DNA from: Saturnia japonica
Lineage: Eukaryota; Arthropoda; Insecta; Lepidoptera; Saturniidae
Length of the DNA stretch: 64,000 nt
Direction of reading: 5' to 3'
Assembly: GCA_033032175.1 (NCBI GenBank)
Contig: CM065316.1
Span: 8,898,115-8,962,114, forward strand
Within the stretch, counting starts at the first letter, position 1; each line of letters begins with the position of its first letter. Of this stretch, positions 53,576-61,027 are shown piece by piece. The notes beneath the pieces were generated by a model, which saw only the letters and a list, made by a program, of their open reading frames with translations, was not told the origin of the DNA and searched no databases. The translations under genes were made by a program, and so were the position numbers.

Positions 53576-53850
53576 ACATACCACATGGACCAAGTCTCTT
53601 GCACACATCGTAGTTAATTATTTATCCGAAATTTCTTTGCTACTGCCGTGTTAATTAATTAGTGTGCAAATTTATACTACTGACAGATTGTTATATTATT
53701 AACAGAAGAAAACAGTCGCTCGAGGTTCACCGTTGGCAATGCTATGTGAAATAATTTTTCCATTCGAACCAATAGTTCCTGAGATTAGCGCGTTCAACAA
53801 AACAAATAAACAAACTCTTCAGGTTTATAATATTAGTATAGATACCACAT

Positions 53851-55001
53851 ATTATAAACATATTTGTATTATACAGAAGACTGAGGAGTATAATCTGCCT
53901 TTATGCTTAGCGTTCGTGGACTACGAAAAAGCCTTTGATTCGGTCGAAACCTGGGCAGTGTTGCAGTCTCTCCAGCGGTGCCGTATTGACTATCGATATA
54001 TCGAAGTATTGAAGTGCTTGTACAACAACGCCACCATGTCGGTCCGAGTACAGGAGCAGTGCACGAAAGCAATTCCTTTGAGAAGAGGTGTTAGACAGGG
54101 AGACCTAATATCTCCGAAACTGTTTACCGCCGCTCTAGAGGACGCCTTCAAGCTCCTGGAATGGCAAGGACTCGGCATCAATGTCAATGGCGAGTACATC
54201 ACTCACCTTCGATTTGCTGACGACATCGTGGTCATGGCAGAATCGCTGGAAGATCTTGGCACAATGCTCGATGGCCTCGACAAAGTTTCTCAACAGGTGG
54301 GCCTTAAAATGAACATGGACAAGACGAAAATCATGTCGAATGTCCATGTGGTGCCCACCCCAGTATCAGTTGGGAACTCTTGTCTAGAAGTTGTTGAAGA
54401 ATATGTCTACCTGGGACAAACAGTCCAGTTAGGTAGGTCCAACTTTGAAAAAGAGGTCAGTCGACGAATCCAACTCGGCTGGGCAGCGTTTGGGAAACTG
54501 CGCGACGTATTCTCGTCCAAAATACCTCAGTGCCTCAAGACGAAAGTCTTTGACCAGTGTGTGTTGCCAGTGATGACATACGGCACAGAGACGTGGTCGC
54601 TCACTGTGGGCCTCATAAGAAAGCTCAAGGTCGCTCAGCGAGCTATGGAGAGGGCTATGATTGGTGTTTCTCTACGAGATCGAATCAGAAATGAGGAGAT
54701 CCGTCGACAAACTAAGGTCACCGACATAGCCAAAAGGATTAGCAAGTTGAAGTGGCAGTGGGCGGGGCATATAGTTCGGAGAACTGACGGCAGTTGGGGC
54801 AGAAGGGTTCTCGAGTGGAGACCACGCACCGGAAAGCGCAGCGTAGGACGGCCCCCCACTAGATGGAAAGACGACATAATAAAGGTCGCTGGGAGCCGTT
54901 GGGTGCAGGCCGCACAAGATCGGTCGCTCTGGAGATCTATGGGGGAGGCCTATGTTCAGCAGTGGACGTCCTGCGGCTGAAATGATGATGATGATGATGA
55001 T
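53851..55001 (+). mobile_element. 5'-truncated RTE-type retrotransposon copy
   Basis: Flanked by a direct repeat GATACCACAT at 53841-53850 and 55002-55011; uninterrupted array units have this sequence once. The copy ends in (ATG)n (54982-55001), the usual RTE tail. Its GC content is clearly higher than that of the surrounding DNA. The 5' end is truncated within the RT domain, as expected for incomplete target-primed reverse transcription. Confidence 0.9.
53868..54980 (+). CDS. RTE-type reverse transcriptase, C-terminal part, open frame
   Basis: Non-LTR reverse transcriptase that copies element RNA into the target. The frame is open from inside the flanking repeat (53733) to the stop at 54978-54980, but the element-encoded part starts only after the target duplication, around QKTEEYNLPLCLAFVDYEKA. 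Visible motifs are LAFVDYEKAFDSV (finger/palm), IPLRRGVRQGDLISPKLF, the catalytic YITHLRFADDIVVMAES, GLKMNMDKTKIM and EEYVYLGQTV. The C-terminal region follows with QCVLPVMTYGTETWSL, KVAQRAMERAMIGVSLRDR, KWQWAGHIVRR and GRPPTRWKDD. The FADD aspartates are intact and there is no stop or frameshift, so it is a young insertion. It lacks the endonuclease and the first RT blocks and cannot move by itself. Confidence 0.9.
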   Translation: MIQKTEEYNLPLCLAFVDYEKAFDSVETWAVLQSLQRCRIDYRYIEVLKCLYNNATMSVRVQEQCTKAIPLRRGVRQGDLISPKLFTAALEDAFKLLEWQGLGINVNGEYITHLRFADDIVVMAESLEDLGTMLDGLDKVSQQVGLKMNMDKTKIMSNVHVVPTPVSVGNSCLEVVEEYVYLGQTVQLGRSNFEKEVSRRIQLGWAAFGKLRDVFSSKIPQCLKTKVFDQCVLPVMTYGTETWSLTVGLIRKLKVAQRAMERAMIGVSLRDRIRNEEIRRQTKVTDIAKRISKLKWQWAGHIVRRTDGSWGRRVLEWRPRTGKRSVGRPPTRWKDDIIKVAGSRWVQAAQDRSLWRSMGEAYVQQWTSCG

Positions 55002-55354
55002 GATACCACATGGATCAAGTCGCTTGCACACATCGTAATTAATTTATACAAAATTTCTTTGCTACTGCCGTGTTAATTAATTAGTGTGCAAATTTATTCT
55101 ACTGACAGATTGTTATATTATTGACTGAAGAAAACAGTCGCTCAAGGTTCACCGTTGCCAATGCATGTAAAATAATTTTTCCATTCGAACCAGTAGTTCC
55201 TGAGATTAGCGCGTTCAACAAAACAAATAAACAAACTCTTCAGGTTTATAATATTAGTATAGATACCACATGGACCAAGTCTCTTGTACACATCGTAGTT
55301 AATTTATCCGAAATTTCTTTGCTACTGCCGTGATAATTAATTCTGTGGTCATAG

Positions 55355-55589
55355 ATCAGACAATGATAAGTACATTTTTGCTCAGTATGACTTATTAATA
55401 TAGGTATAATCGCCAAAAAATGCTCTTTCATTTGGTCATGTCAGGATAACTACATGCAAAATATTATTACTGTTGTATTGAATACTAATCAGATTATGAT
55501 AACTTTTATATTTCAACTTTTGTTTTGGTCATATTGCGTTAAGTGATTTTATTTAGATCTGACCGATTTTATTGATCAGAATATGACAA
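55355..55589 (+). promoter_or_regulatory. Subterminal repeats near the left end of the 5.35 kb transposon
   Basis: The motif ATCAGANNATGAYAA occurs at 55355-55369 (within the TIR), 55488-55502 and 55575-55589, and in inverse form in the right TIR at 60666-60680 (with GTC instead of ATC). Such repeats are typical binding sites for a cognate transposase. Confidence 0.6.
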
Positions 55590-57505
55590 AAGCTCACTTA
55601 TGATCAAAAATTACTCGGTTAGCGGGAAACATGTCATAACGTGTCGTGTCATTATTGTTTCACATACTGCACATTTCGTAGTTCATTGTTAGTTTTCGTT
55701 ATTTCGCCGGTAAAGGAACATTAATATAGGTTATAATTACTGTTTAAATGATGAGTGCTCGTTGTAAGCTGTTGGAGTTAGCTATGAGGCAAGAAGATTC
55801 AGAGGTATGTTTATCATTATTTTTATTGTTATTTTATTCAAAGCGCGTCAAAGTGTTCATTGCGAGAGTACGAGTAAGTATGAGTTTTAGTGAGCAATAT
55901 TGTAATAATTTATATGAGTGCTTGTGCCTAGTATATTTTATATTAAACGAACTCTGAACAAAACATAATGACCGTTAACTTACGTAGGTAATCATTCATA
56001 AGATAAAATACTGGCACCTAGGTCTAACGTTGTTTTTTTTTTTCATTTTAGGATTTAGCTGTGAAACAATGTATGAGAGAACGTACTCCATTAGCTCAGA
56101 AGGATATCTTGCAATCTCTGACAAGCCCGTCAGGTTATCTAGTAGCTCAGCAAAATATTTTGCAATCTCTGCCCGACCCGTCAGGTAATCGAGCTTATAG
56201 TTCTGATGACGATGTGCAGGATTGTAATTGGTTCCCTGCTGGTATACACGTTGAACACGTGTCATCATCGTCATTTAGTAAGACATCTACCCCTAAAAGT
56301 ATTGGAAGCATTGCTGTCCCAACATTGGTTTCTCAAATACAGGATGACGTTAGAAGAAAAAGGAAGCGTTGTGTCGGTATGATACAAAGAAAACTCCGTA
56401 AAGAAAGAACAGAAAAAATTACAAAGTGGGAAGAATACATAAATCAAGCTAGGAAAAAAATATTGGGTAAATCTGTAGGTGTACTAAAAGAATGCAGATT
56501 AAAATGTAAAACTAAATTTACGAATGCACAATTACAAAGAGTTTTTGCGGATTATCGCGCTATGGAAATTAGGGATATGCAACGTTTACATTTGAGTAAC
56601 AATATACTATTAACACCGCCAATTAGAGTTAAACAGGTTGAATACAAAAATAAAAGAGAAGTTTCTGTAGAATACTTTATTGAAAATGAAGGTAATTTTG
56701 TAAAAGTTTGTCAAAACTGTTTTCTTAACGTGTATGGTGAGAATCGTGGTTTTGTGAATGGCATAATAATTGACAAGAAGAAAAAGTCAGCTACAGGTAT
56801 CATTGGACGGGATGAAAGAGGCAGACATGAACCAAAAATTAAACATTCAAATGAAGCAATTGATTATGTGCGTAATCATATTTATAATTTCCCTGCATAT
56901 GAAAGCCACTATTCAAGACGACACACTATGAAAAGATACCTAGAGACTGGGTTGAATTTACAAAAAATGTATAACTTATACCTAGACTAACATACCATCG
57001 ACAACATAACTACAAAAATAGTCAGCCTTTCTACATATAGTAATATTTTTAAGACATTCAATTTAAAATTTAAAAAGCCACAACGATACTTGCCATATTT
57101 ATGATACATTTGTAGCAAAAATAAAAATTACAATAAATGACACTGAGAAAACGAGACTACATGACGAACATGTCTCCTCTCATCAGGATAAAGCAAATTT
57201 CCATTACGAATGTAAATCTTTCGATAAACCACGTGCCAAGTCATCAGGAAATACTATCGTTGTCGCTGTGTGTGATTTACAGCAGTGTCTCGCTACACCA
57301 TACTTAAATAATAGTGTAGCATTTTACAAAAGGAAGCTATGGACTTTTAATTTCACAGTCAGAAATTGTAACACTGGGAAAACTACTTGTTTCATGTGGC
57401 ATGAAGCTATCGCGCAACGTGGTGCTGACGAAATAGCACATTGCCTAAAAATGTTCATAATGAGCTTGCCCGAAGAAACAGAACACGTTATTATTTATTC
57501 AGATA

Positions 57506-58808
57506 CAAGGTGTCCAGAAAGGGTATCGGGTATTTGTAAGTTCAATGAAACAAAAATTATTTGTATGCAATAAAAAAGTTTATTGTTTATTATTAGCATA
57601 TGAATTGGAGAATTATTTGGAAAAGATGATGTTATCCAAATGATGACCGTTACGTTGCTGGCACTCTTCTAAACGGAAACGAAGATTGGCGATAACACGT
57701 TGACACATAGCTATCGATATTGCTGCCATTTCTGACCTGATGTTTTGCTTTAACTGGGTTAGATTCGTCGGATTGTTTTGATAAACCTTACTTTTAAGGT
57801 ATCCCCATGCAAAATAGTCAAGCGGGCTAAGGTCGGGGCTTCTGGGAGGCCAGTTAAAGTTACCCCTTCGCGAAATGACTTTATTAGGGAATAATTCGTT
57901 AACAACTTCCATTGAGTCATTTGAGGTATGGCAAGTGGCCCCATCTTGCTGGAACCACGTTCTTGAGTTGAAACCTGCAAACTCCTGCAACTCTGGGACC
58001 AAAAAATTTCGCAACATATCGCAATAACGGTCACTATTCACATGAATTGCTCGGCCTCGTTGATCTTCATGAAAATAAGGACCAGTTATGCCTTTAGCAG
58101 ACATAGCGGCCCAAACAACGACCTTTGGGCTATGCAGGGGTCGTTCATGCTTTCGTCTCGGATTCTCCACTGCCCAGTACCGACAATTCTGCTTATTAAC
58201 ATGACCATTCAGGTGAAAATTTGCTTCGTCACTAAACAGTATGTTGTTAAAGTTGTTAAATCGCTGCAGCATTTCGTTCGCAAAATTCAGTCGATTAGCA
58301 TAGTCCGTATCCTTCAATTCTTGAACCAATTGAATTTTATAGGCTTTTAGATGTAAGTCTTTCTTTAAAATCGAATGTAAAGACGATTTTTTGATGTTCA
58401 ACGCTTATCTTCGCTTTCGGATGGATAAAGACGGATTTTGACGAACCGACGCCTCAACTTCTTCAATTGTTTCTTCATCGCGAACTGAACGAGGACGACC
58501 AGAGTTTTGAATTTTAACTGTCGCACCTGTATTCTCGAACATCCTGATCCATTTCCTAATGCTATCGTCACTTGGCGCGTGGCGTGTACGATATTCCACA
58601 CGATAGAGACGTTGAGCAGTCACTATTGAATCACCATTACGATAATACGCTCGTACGCAAAATGCGCGATGCGTCCCCGAGTACTGTTCCATCGTGACTA
58701 AAACTCCACAAAATGGCGGACGCCACGGACCCCTGCCCGCACCCTTTAGACGTCCCGTTTCGAATATGGCGCGAAAACAAATACCCGATACCCTTTCTGG
58801 ACACCTTG
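57506..58808 (-). mobile_element. DD41D (Visitor-type) mariner element with perfect 31 bp TIRs
   Basis: Starts CAAGGTGTCCAGAAAGGGTA and its right end is the exact inverted copy for 31 bases (57506-57536 and 58778-58808). TA flanks both sides (57504-57505, 58809-58810). Removing the element and one TA joins the host frame as SDT-CPGQ, which confirms the boundaries. Confidence 0.95.
57613..58692 (-). pseudogene. DD41D mariner transposase with a single nonsense codon
   Basis: Tc1/mariner-superfamily transposase reading from the ATG at 58692 (MEQYSGTHRAFCVRAYYRNG) to the stop at 57615-57613. The N-terminus has a helix-turn-helix with DDSIRKWIRMFENTG and GRPRSVRDEETIEEVEASVR. One TAA (58407-58405), after LSIRKRR, interrupts the frame, which goes straight on as ALNIKKSSLHSILKKDLHLK, so only one codon is broken. 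Catalytic aspartates lie in NNILFSDEANFHLNGH, RTWFQQDGATCHTS and SPDLSPLDYFAWGY. Exactly 41 residues separate the last two, the hallmark of the DD41D group. The C-terminus FRLEECQQRNGHHLDNIIF is complete. Total length is 359 codons including the stop. Perfect TIRs and a single nonsense change mark a recent insertion. Confidence 0.92.
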
Positions 58809-59594
58809 TACATGTCCCGGGCAAACCCGCAACAACACATTACCTGTTGTATAAACTACTACTTCTCAGAAAGTTGGTTCAAGACTATAGATCATAAATT
58901 TCTAGTTCCTGGTCACACACATTTAGAGTGTGATGCTGACCATGCCTCAATCGGGCGAGCCAAGAAGAAATATAATGGAAGAATTTCAATTCCAAATAAC
59001 TGGTACATGCTTGTATGAATGGTCAGCAGTAAGTTAACTGTGATATAATTGTCACAAGACGACATTTTTGCATTTTCGAGCATTCTAAATCAGTCGCTTA
59101 TAAAGAATACCAAGGATTCTATAACGAACCTTTTCTGTGGCGTAATATATTATGGATACGCGTCGAGAAAGAACATCCTTGTTTATTTTCTTTTAAGTAT
59201 TCACTGCGAGTGGAAGACGAGTTTAAAATATGTGACATGAAGAGGAAAGCCAGAGTCAGTCGAAATAATCAGCCAATAATGGATGTTTGTAAGGTTTACA
59301 ATCAGCCATTATTAATAAGTAAAGAAACACATAAGGATATTTTATCTTTATTACAGTACATTGATCCAGTGTACCATGATTTCTATAAGAATTTTAATAA
59401 AGTCTGACAACGACGTAGTAGACACATCACATATTAGTTATTATAATTCTGATTCTGAATAGAAATTATTCTATTATTAAATCTATTATCTTATTTTTTT
59501 AATGCTGCTTCGAGCGCAATGTTTTATGCCAAATATTCTGCATTGTCATTTTAAATTTAAATAAAGTATTTTTCTCATATTTGTCTTTCATTTA

Positions 59595-60409
59595 GGGAGG
59601 CTTGCACCAAATGACTTCAAACTCGATTTAGTGAAATTAAAACTCAACTTAGGCTTAAATCTAGTTAACGTCTTGCACGACGTCAGTTTGACGTTAATCT
59701 CGATTTTAGAAGCTGTCAAAATGAAACCGACAATTTCGACGATTTAACTTACTAATTCTTGATTTAACTGTAAGTGTTTCACATTTTTGTAAGGAATTTT
59801 TTTGTGCTATGGAAATATTTTCGAGCCCAGTAGATGTTATTACATCCGACGAAGATTCCCTTTCAGATGACGATGAAGTGATTTTTCAATTTTTGAATAC
59901 TTACACCTTATTTCTATAGAAAAGTCAATGAACGTAGCGGCTTGTTTAATAGTTTAAGGGATGATGAATTTATAACGAGATTTCGCTTGAGTAAACAAAG
60001 TGTAATGCTGCTTTTAAGTCAAATAATTACATATTTATTAATAATTAATAATAACAGGTAATAAAAGAACCGTATATTGTTTTTGTGAAGCACAAAATAT
60101 GTACGACCGAAGATACTGACAAGTGACAATATCTTCCGTTTACTTTGCCTGTCAAATTCAAAAGTGACATTCAAAACGTTTCTTTTCACGACGCTCAGTA
60201 AATGTTTTCTTAATTAATAATTTTTTGTGGAAAACGAACCGTAATTACGCGTTAATTGTATTATCTATGGCTTAAACTCGGATTAGTTAAATCGAGTTAG
60301 AGAACCGATAATGCAAGACAAACTTATGCAGATTTAAGTTAAATTGAGTTTAAGGAAGAATCGAGAAATAATAAAATCTAGTTTTAGAAGCTTTTGGTGC
60401 AAGCCGCCC
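59595..60409 (+). mobile_element. PIF/Harbinger deletion derivative with TTA target duplication
   Basis: Ends GGGAGGCTTGCACCAAA and the inverse of GGGCGGCTTGCACCAAA, flanked by TTA (59592-59594 and 60410-60412), the usual Harbinger target. Within it, the frame from 59809 reads MEIFSSPVDVITSDEDSLSD and, after frameshifts, ERSGLFNSLRDDEFITRFRL, as at the N-terminus of Harbinger transposases. The catalytic part is deleted. It lies inside the 3' flank of the DUF7869-like transposon. Confidence 0.85.
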
Positions 60410-61027
60410 TTAAGATCATAACACGATAACTACCTACTTCTTTTGATCACAGTGTAACAAGTGCAACCATTCTTTAAAAAAGAAAACAGTACGTGAATAC
60501 TACGCATTCCACAATGAACTTTAAGTATTTTTACAAATTAGTAACACATTTCCTTAATAAAAAAATATTTTTTTTCTTCATATATCGAGTGTTTCATATT
60601 TTAATAATGCCTTCAAGATTTCTTAATAAATTAATGGCTTGTCCTGTAAAGTAATGAAATTGCATTTATCATATTCTGACCTATGGGCACAGAATTAATG
60701 TGCAAAATTTATTCTACTGACAGATTGTTATATTATTGAAAGAAAACAGTAGAGGTGTTATATTAGGCTGATATTTTGGTATTACTAATATTAGTTAACT
60801 CGTATTAGGTTCCCGTACCTATTATTTGGTATTAGTCACCGATTCAATATTCGCTACCTACTTGAATCTAATACTGATATTAAGCAAATCTATTCTCAGT
60901 ATTTTCTATACTTATAGAATGTGTGTATGAAATAAAAGATTGTTGTGAATATTTATTGTTATTATCCGTATGCTTATTATATAACATAAATGAAAAAGTG
61001 GTTAAATTTTCTTTCGTATTAATAAAT

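Follow-up and report, generated by a model that had tools for sequence, protein, structure and literature searches.

The window analysed in this study is a 64,000-nucleotide stretch of contig CM065316.1 of Saturnia japonica, and positions are counted from its first letter. It contains a 5,350-bp element that is bounded by terminal inverted repeats (TIRs) and 4-bp target site duplications and that carries one gene of its own, encoding a protein of the DUF7869 family (PF25273). We consider it highly likely that this element is a defunct member of a family of autonomous cut-and-paste transposons with the DUF7869 protein as transposase, and DUF7869 very probably moves such elements in insects and in some bacteria. 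The limits of the element and its empty target sites were annotated as follows:

55343..60692, plus strand: whole element, a DUF7869 transposon of the window family 'W', 5,350 bp (from the TIRs, the 4-bp duplication, the empty sites and five copies of 255-256 bp that share both ends)
55339..55342, no strand: left target site duplication, AATT (flank comparison)
60693..60696, no strand: right target site duplication, AATT (flank comparison)
55343..55378, plus strand: left TIR, beginning CTGTGGTCATAGATCAG, kept in three long copies (the window included) and five short copies
60657..60692, plus strand: right TIR (inverted-repeat scan and copy table)
53636..53700, plus strand: unoccupied insertion site in one of the neighbouring tandem units (alignment to the joined flanks)
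55058..55130, plus strand: second unoccupied insertion site, in the adjacent tandem unit (alignment to the joined flanks)

The sequence-only reading that preceded this analysis had placed inverted ends around 55341..60694. These ends are real, with limits corrected to 55343-60692. The inverted arms (55336-55378 and 60657-60699) are 43 nt long and 81% complementary. Target DNA accounts for about seven of the 43 positions, so that the TIRs themselves match at about 28 of 36 positions (derived by hand). The identical short sequence reported on both flanks and the empty sites reported in the tandem neighbours were likewise recovered, the former as AATT and the latter in two units, at 53636 and 55058. 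When the flanks are joined with one AATT, they align to both empty units with no gap at the junction; the few gaps present are one of 3 bases on the left, confined to unit 53636, and two on the right, of 1 base and 3 bases, the nearest being several bases off. With a TTAA duplication, the joined site would fall 4 bp short of the empty sites (by hand), and because the AATT reading restores the empty-site length, the window duplication is taken to be AATT and not TTAA. A 425-amino-acid open frame (53703-54980), reverse-transcriptase-like and by eye of the non-long-terminal-repeat retrotransposon type, lies beside the units that supply the empty sites.

The gene of the element and the two transposons nested within the element occupy the following positions:

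55748..55804, plus strand: probable exon 1 of the DUF7869 gene, 19 codons (by eye; splice sites inferred)
55805..56051, plus strand: probable intron, GT...AG (inferred)
56052..56990, plus strand: N-terminal half of the DUF7869 protein, a 312-amino-acid frame ending in a stop (aligns with DUF7869 proteins)
57067..57503, plus strand: part of the catalytic core with the first Asp (CDLQQ) and the second Asp (YSD), cut by the mariner-like insertion (alignment)
57506..58808, minus strand: mariner-like transposon nested in the element, with TA flanks (57504-57505 and 58809-58810) and inverted arms of 34 nt that match perfectly
58811..59018, plus strand: continuation of the catalytic core with the third Asp (HLECDADH) (PF25273 match, E=0.0047; alignment)
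59033..59407, plus strand: C-terminal part of the DUF7869 protein, in a different frame (frames and alignment)
59595..60409, no strand: nested Harbinger-like element with a TIR pair and TTA flanks (59592-59594 and 60410-60412)

A single spliced gene encoding a DUF7869-like protein had been proposed for this interval. The description holds for the element's own gene, with its plausible small exon 1, intron and long exon 2, but two nested transposons also lie inside. Protein P0001 opens with a comparable short N-terminal stretch ahead of the homologous long frame. The DUF7869 frame is broken by a stop codon (56988-56990), by shifts of frame and by the transposon inserted within it, so that the window copy is dead. 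The PF25273 match in the window itself is weak and below the Pfam cut-off (17 bits against a cut-off of 26, in one of four pieces), and the assignment becomes firm through relatives. A glutamate found beyond the third aspartate in insect relatives is a glycine in the window copy. Against Pfam, the mariner-like insertion matched the DUF4817 helix-turn-helix domain over the cut-off (E=3.1e-17) and DDE_3 just below it (E=1.2e-05), and its own frame lies in two pieces on the minus strand (58405-58839 and 57613-58404). We presume from its type of duplication and TIR that the other insertion is of the Harbinger kind; its short frame (59725-59919) has no Pfam match.

Relatives were sought in the 580-Mb assembly of 402 contigs, where the N-terminal piece of the window protein gave 78 matches (the window included) and the PF25273 profile at least 101. 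A DNA search with the left end, which counts copies that retain this end, found 10 matches. Besides the window itself, they comprise two long copies, five short ones and a pair of partial matches that share one further place. The five short copies are 255-256 bp long, have both ends and are 93-96% identical to the left 186 bp of the window element. Five further DUF7869 families (A, B, C, D and F) in the same genome were also found to end in TIRs, with families B, C, D and F picked from the PF25273 match list, of which a minority of places was examined. Family A, 31% identical to the N-terminal piece of the window protein, has nine copies that are 97.7-99.5% identical where aligned, two of them being aligned along only part of the stretch. 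The family-A element measures about 4.0 kb and has open frames of up to 830 amino acids. The frames of families A, B, D and F match PF25273 over the Pfam cut-off. Flanking TIRs and duplications are regularly present among the DUF7869 genes examined, though the duplications do not have the TTAA or 7-bp form that had been proposed. TTCTGTG-type ends are not general either: the window family and family A begin with CTGT..., and the termini of families B, C, D and F are different. The family-A frame (L031, 3946-6438) shares 98% identity over the searched region with a protein of Pieris macdunnoughi but 75% with a Bombyx mori protein. Unless Pieris is closely related to the window species, this similarity suggests that family A may have been transferred horizontally.

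Target site duplications were tabulated for 23 copies, namely six of the window family (the window and the five short copies), nine of family A, three of family B, one of family C and two each of families D and F; the two other long window-family copies were left out. Both ends are kept in 22 of these copies, and 21 of the 22 show an exact 4-bp duplication, a fraction that overstates the independence of the copies a little because the duplications guided the choice of boundaries. The exact duplications, drawn from six families, are ATAT (seven), AATT (five), ATTT (five), AAAT (two), CATT (one) and AGAT (one), so that AWWT fits 19 of the 21 with CATT and AGAT as the exceptions, and none is TTAA. 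When left and right flanks of different copies were paired, which is a fair control because the sites are AT-rich, 86 of 462 pairings matched. A 7-bp duplication was rejected, as none of the two-ended copies extends the match even to 5 bp. One boundary is common to several copies in families A, B and F and in the short copies, and the right ends of family D were located only beyond the aligned block. In the scan that located the ends of the family-C copy, another locus of this family (L077) yielded no comparable pair.

The AlphaFold models of two distant families contain an RNase H core, the fold that the sequence-only reading had anticipated. The closest solved folds to the catalytic core are retroviral integrases, followed by a second group of mariner-type transposases (Mos1 and Metnase). 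When the family profile was compared with the chains of solved structures, no transposase or integrase was found at E 1, and two chains at E 0.043 were receptor constructs, which we took as chance matches. In an alignment that includes seven bacterial proteins, the acidic residues D240, D302, E345, D379 and D421 (family-A core numbering) are invariant. The acidic motifs CDLQQ, YSDT and HLECDADH, which the sequence-only reading had named, align with three invariant aspartates, which are the same in 17 proteins, and these point to a putative D-D-D triad of D302, D379 and D421. A D-D-E triad with the glutamate of 'HSxIER' as third residue was rejected: this residue is invariant as long as bacteria are left out, but E428, seven residues past the third aspartate, is replaced by Lys or Arg in all seven bacterial proteins, and D421 is preferred for this reason.

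A scan of bacterial and archaeal genomes yielded 11 bacterial loci encoding relatives, and PF25273 was matched in four scanned bacterial proteins (E 1.1e-17 to 4.2e-25). Three of the loci (L088, L093 and L097) were left out of the TIR scan. Clear TIRs surround the frame in six of the eight scanned (L087, L089, L092, L094, L095 and L096), with about 40 perfect TIR bases at the Desulfocicer vacuolatum locus. Both remaining loci were scored as misses: L090, where the frame starts at the end of a short contig, has no convincing TIR, and L091 has inverted contig ends that may be an assembly effect. PF25273 occurs at one place per genome in the three bacterial genomes searched whole. The bacterial loci with TIRs possibly represent an unnamed insertion-sequence family. 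No relative was found in viral contigs by pattern search and tblastn. Three protein searches returned 83, 179 and 292 proteins over threshold; in the last, which sought slime-mould proteins as a stand-in for Sola2, the entries that carry an organism name were all insects among the best 120 of 292. Three DUF7869 proteins (P0074, P0121 and P0169) are joined to, or named as, a Tudor domain, a reverse transcriptase or an 'ankyrin repeat domain-containing protein 12-like', which could reflect either gene-model artefacts or domestication.

Taken together, the ends, the duplications, the miniature copies, the predicted fold and the bacterial comparison support well the earlier proposal that the DUF7869 protein is the transposase. 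Several observations weigh against it. The copy in the window is itself disrupted. Of the two further long copies of its family, one is flanked by different 4-mers, ATAT and ATTT, at what are presumed to be its ends; these lie 16 kb apart and may belong to two separate copies. For the other, the sequence retrieved did not reveal a right end. Among the tabulated copies, the two-ended L039/L040 has no exact duplication, its left end appearing one base short, and the family-A copy L035/L036 has lost its left end. The setting of boundaries with the duplication in view concerns chiefly families C and D. The single family-C copy fits two registers, ATAT and TCGA, the first of which was used because it agrees with the other copies. 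In bacteria, an exact 4-bp duplication was found in only two of the six two-ended loci (AATT and AAAT); the flanking 4-mers of the other four have the form A..T on both sides by eye but are unequal, possibly through recombination or assembly chimeras. Finally, the proposed role of D421 rests on its invariance and position.

In the literature, Sola elements are described as having DDD transposases, 4-bp duplications and very variable termini and as occurring in bacteria and metazoans (PMC10741241). The Sola2-type elements of slime moulds are described with 12-21-bp TIRs and AT-rich 4-bp duplications written AWWT, with ATAT, AAAT and ATTT also given, and their 4-bp duplication is stated to agree with the Sola2 family (PMC3627910). 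The DUF7869 elements share with these descriptions the AT-rich AWWT duplications, the invariant D-D-D with its presumed catalytic role, the TIRs at their ends, the variability of the termini and the bacterial members. No difference from Sola2 is demonstrated; the slime-mould elements carry the passenger protein Fanzor1 (PMC3627910), and no second long frame was noticed in the DUF7869 loci. We therefore regard the DUF7869 element as a probable member of Sola, group Sola2, and not a proven one, because the likeness rests on descriptions and not on a comparison of transposase sequences.

The other kinds of transposon considered agree less well. Retroviral integrases, Ginger and IS3-IS481 elements resemble the DUF7869 proteins in providing the closest solved fold and in staggered joining, which in the integrase group takes place at 4 to 6 bp (PMC10045372), but their triad is DDE and not DDD, and the five DUF7869 frames compared with Pfam at E 0.1 have no rve match. 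The Tc1/mariner elements, including Mos1 and Metnase, share the RNase H fold but have TA duplications (PMC10741241) instead of 4-bp ones, and the DUF7869 frames have no DDE_3 match. The piggyBac and Kolobok elements share the length of the duplication but are TTAA-specific (PMC9587614), whereas the sites of the DUF7869 elements are AWWT-like.

The strongest rival to Sola2 membership is that the DUF7869 transposons form a superfamily of their own, distinct from Sola1, Sola2 and Sola3. No mention of DUF7869 or PF25273 was found in the literature searched, none of the four proteins compared with NCBIfam had a match close to a cut-off (with nothing useful for L087 and L096), and the likeness to Sola is by description only. 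The new superfamily that the sequence-only reading had tentatively raised is nevertheless not favoured, since every Sola or Sola2 feature tested agrees with the published descriptions, including the joint occurrence in bacteria and metazoans. We thus hold it to be rather unlikely, if still a serious alternative, that a separate DDD superfamily spans insects and bacteria, sulfate reducers among them, with the 4-bp AWWT rule kept across this distance, its bacterial members being an unnamed insertion-sequence family.

It is much less probable that DUF7869 is a passenger in elements that are moved by another transposase recognising their ends. Elements of the Sola2 type and of other kinds are known to carry passenger proteins, as Fanzor1 illustrates (PMC3627910), and the DUF7869 protein with a Tudor domain (P0074) indicates that the family can join other things. 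However, the family-A locus showed no further long frame when frames of at least 150 amino acids were listed, nor did the longest frames (at least 220 amino acids) in the loci of families B, C, D and F include one, the gene stays while the ends vary between families, and the protein itself has the predicted RNase H fold and the invariant acidic triad. A TTAA-specific element of the piggyBac or Kolobok type, suggested by the TTAA that adjoins both ends of the element in the window, is scarcely credible given the 21 exact duplications, the empty sites whose length the TTAA reading fails to restore, and the lack of a piggyBac match in Pfam at E 0.1. That the inverted repeat arose by chance and merely encloses a decayed host gene would fit the imperfect TIRs of the window copy but can practically be dismissed, because relatives elsewhere in the genome have the same ends, the left one in two other long copies and both in the five short ones.

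The ends, the 4-bp duplications, the predicted fold, the invariant residues and several near-identical copies are what the sequences and models show; catalysis, TIR binding and a cut-and-paste rather than a copy-and-paste mode are steps that we infer. In the mechanism proposed here, the DUF7869 protein would bind the TIRs, and its RNase H-like domain would release the element with the help of D302, D379, D421 and metal ions. The element would then be joined to two phosphodiester bonds of an AWWT-like site with a 4-bp stagger, and repair of the gaps would leave the 4-bp duplication. Miniature copies that consist of the ends only would have been mobilised in trans.

The main value of these results is a function, from several independent lines of evidence, for PF25273, a large family of 'unknown function'. 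A role as a DDD transposase would account for a large number of insect proteins that are still uncharacterised, and would warn against counting them as host genes. The families described here offer recently multiplied copies with defined ends for tests of activity, and the TIR-bearing bacterial relatives offer a way to trace where the group came from.
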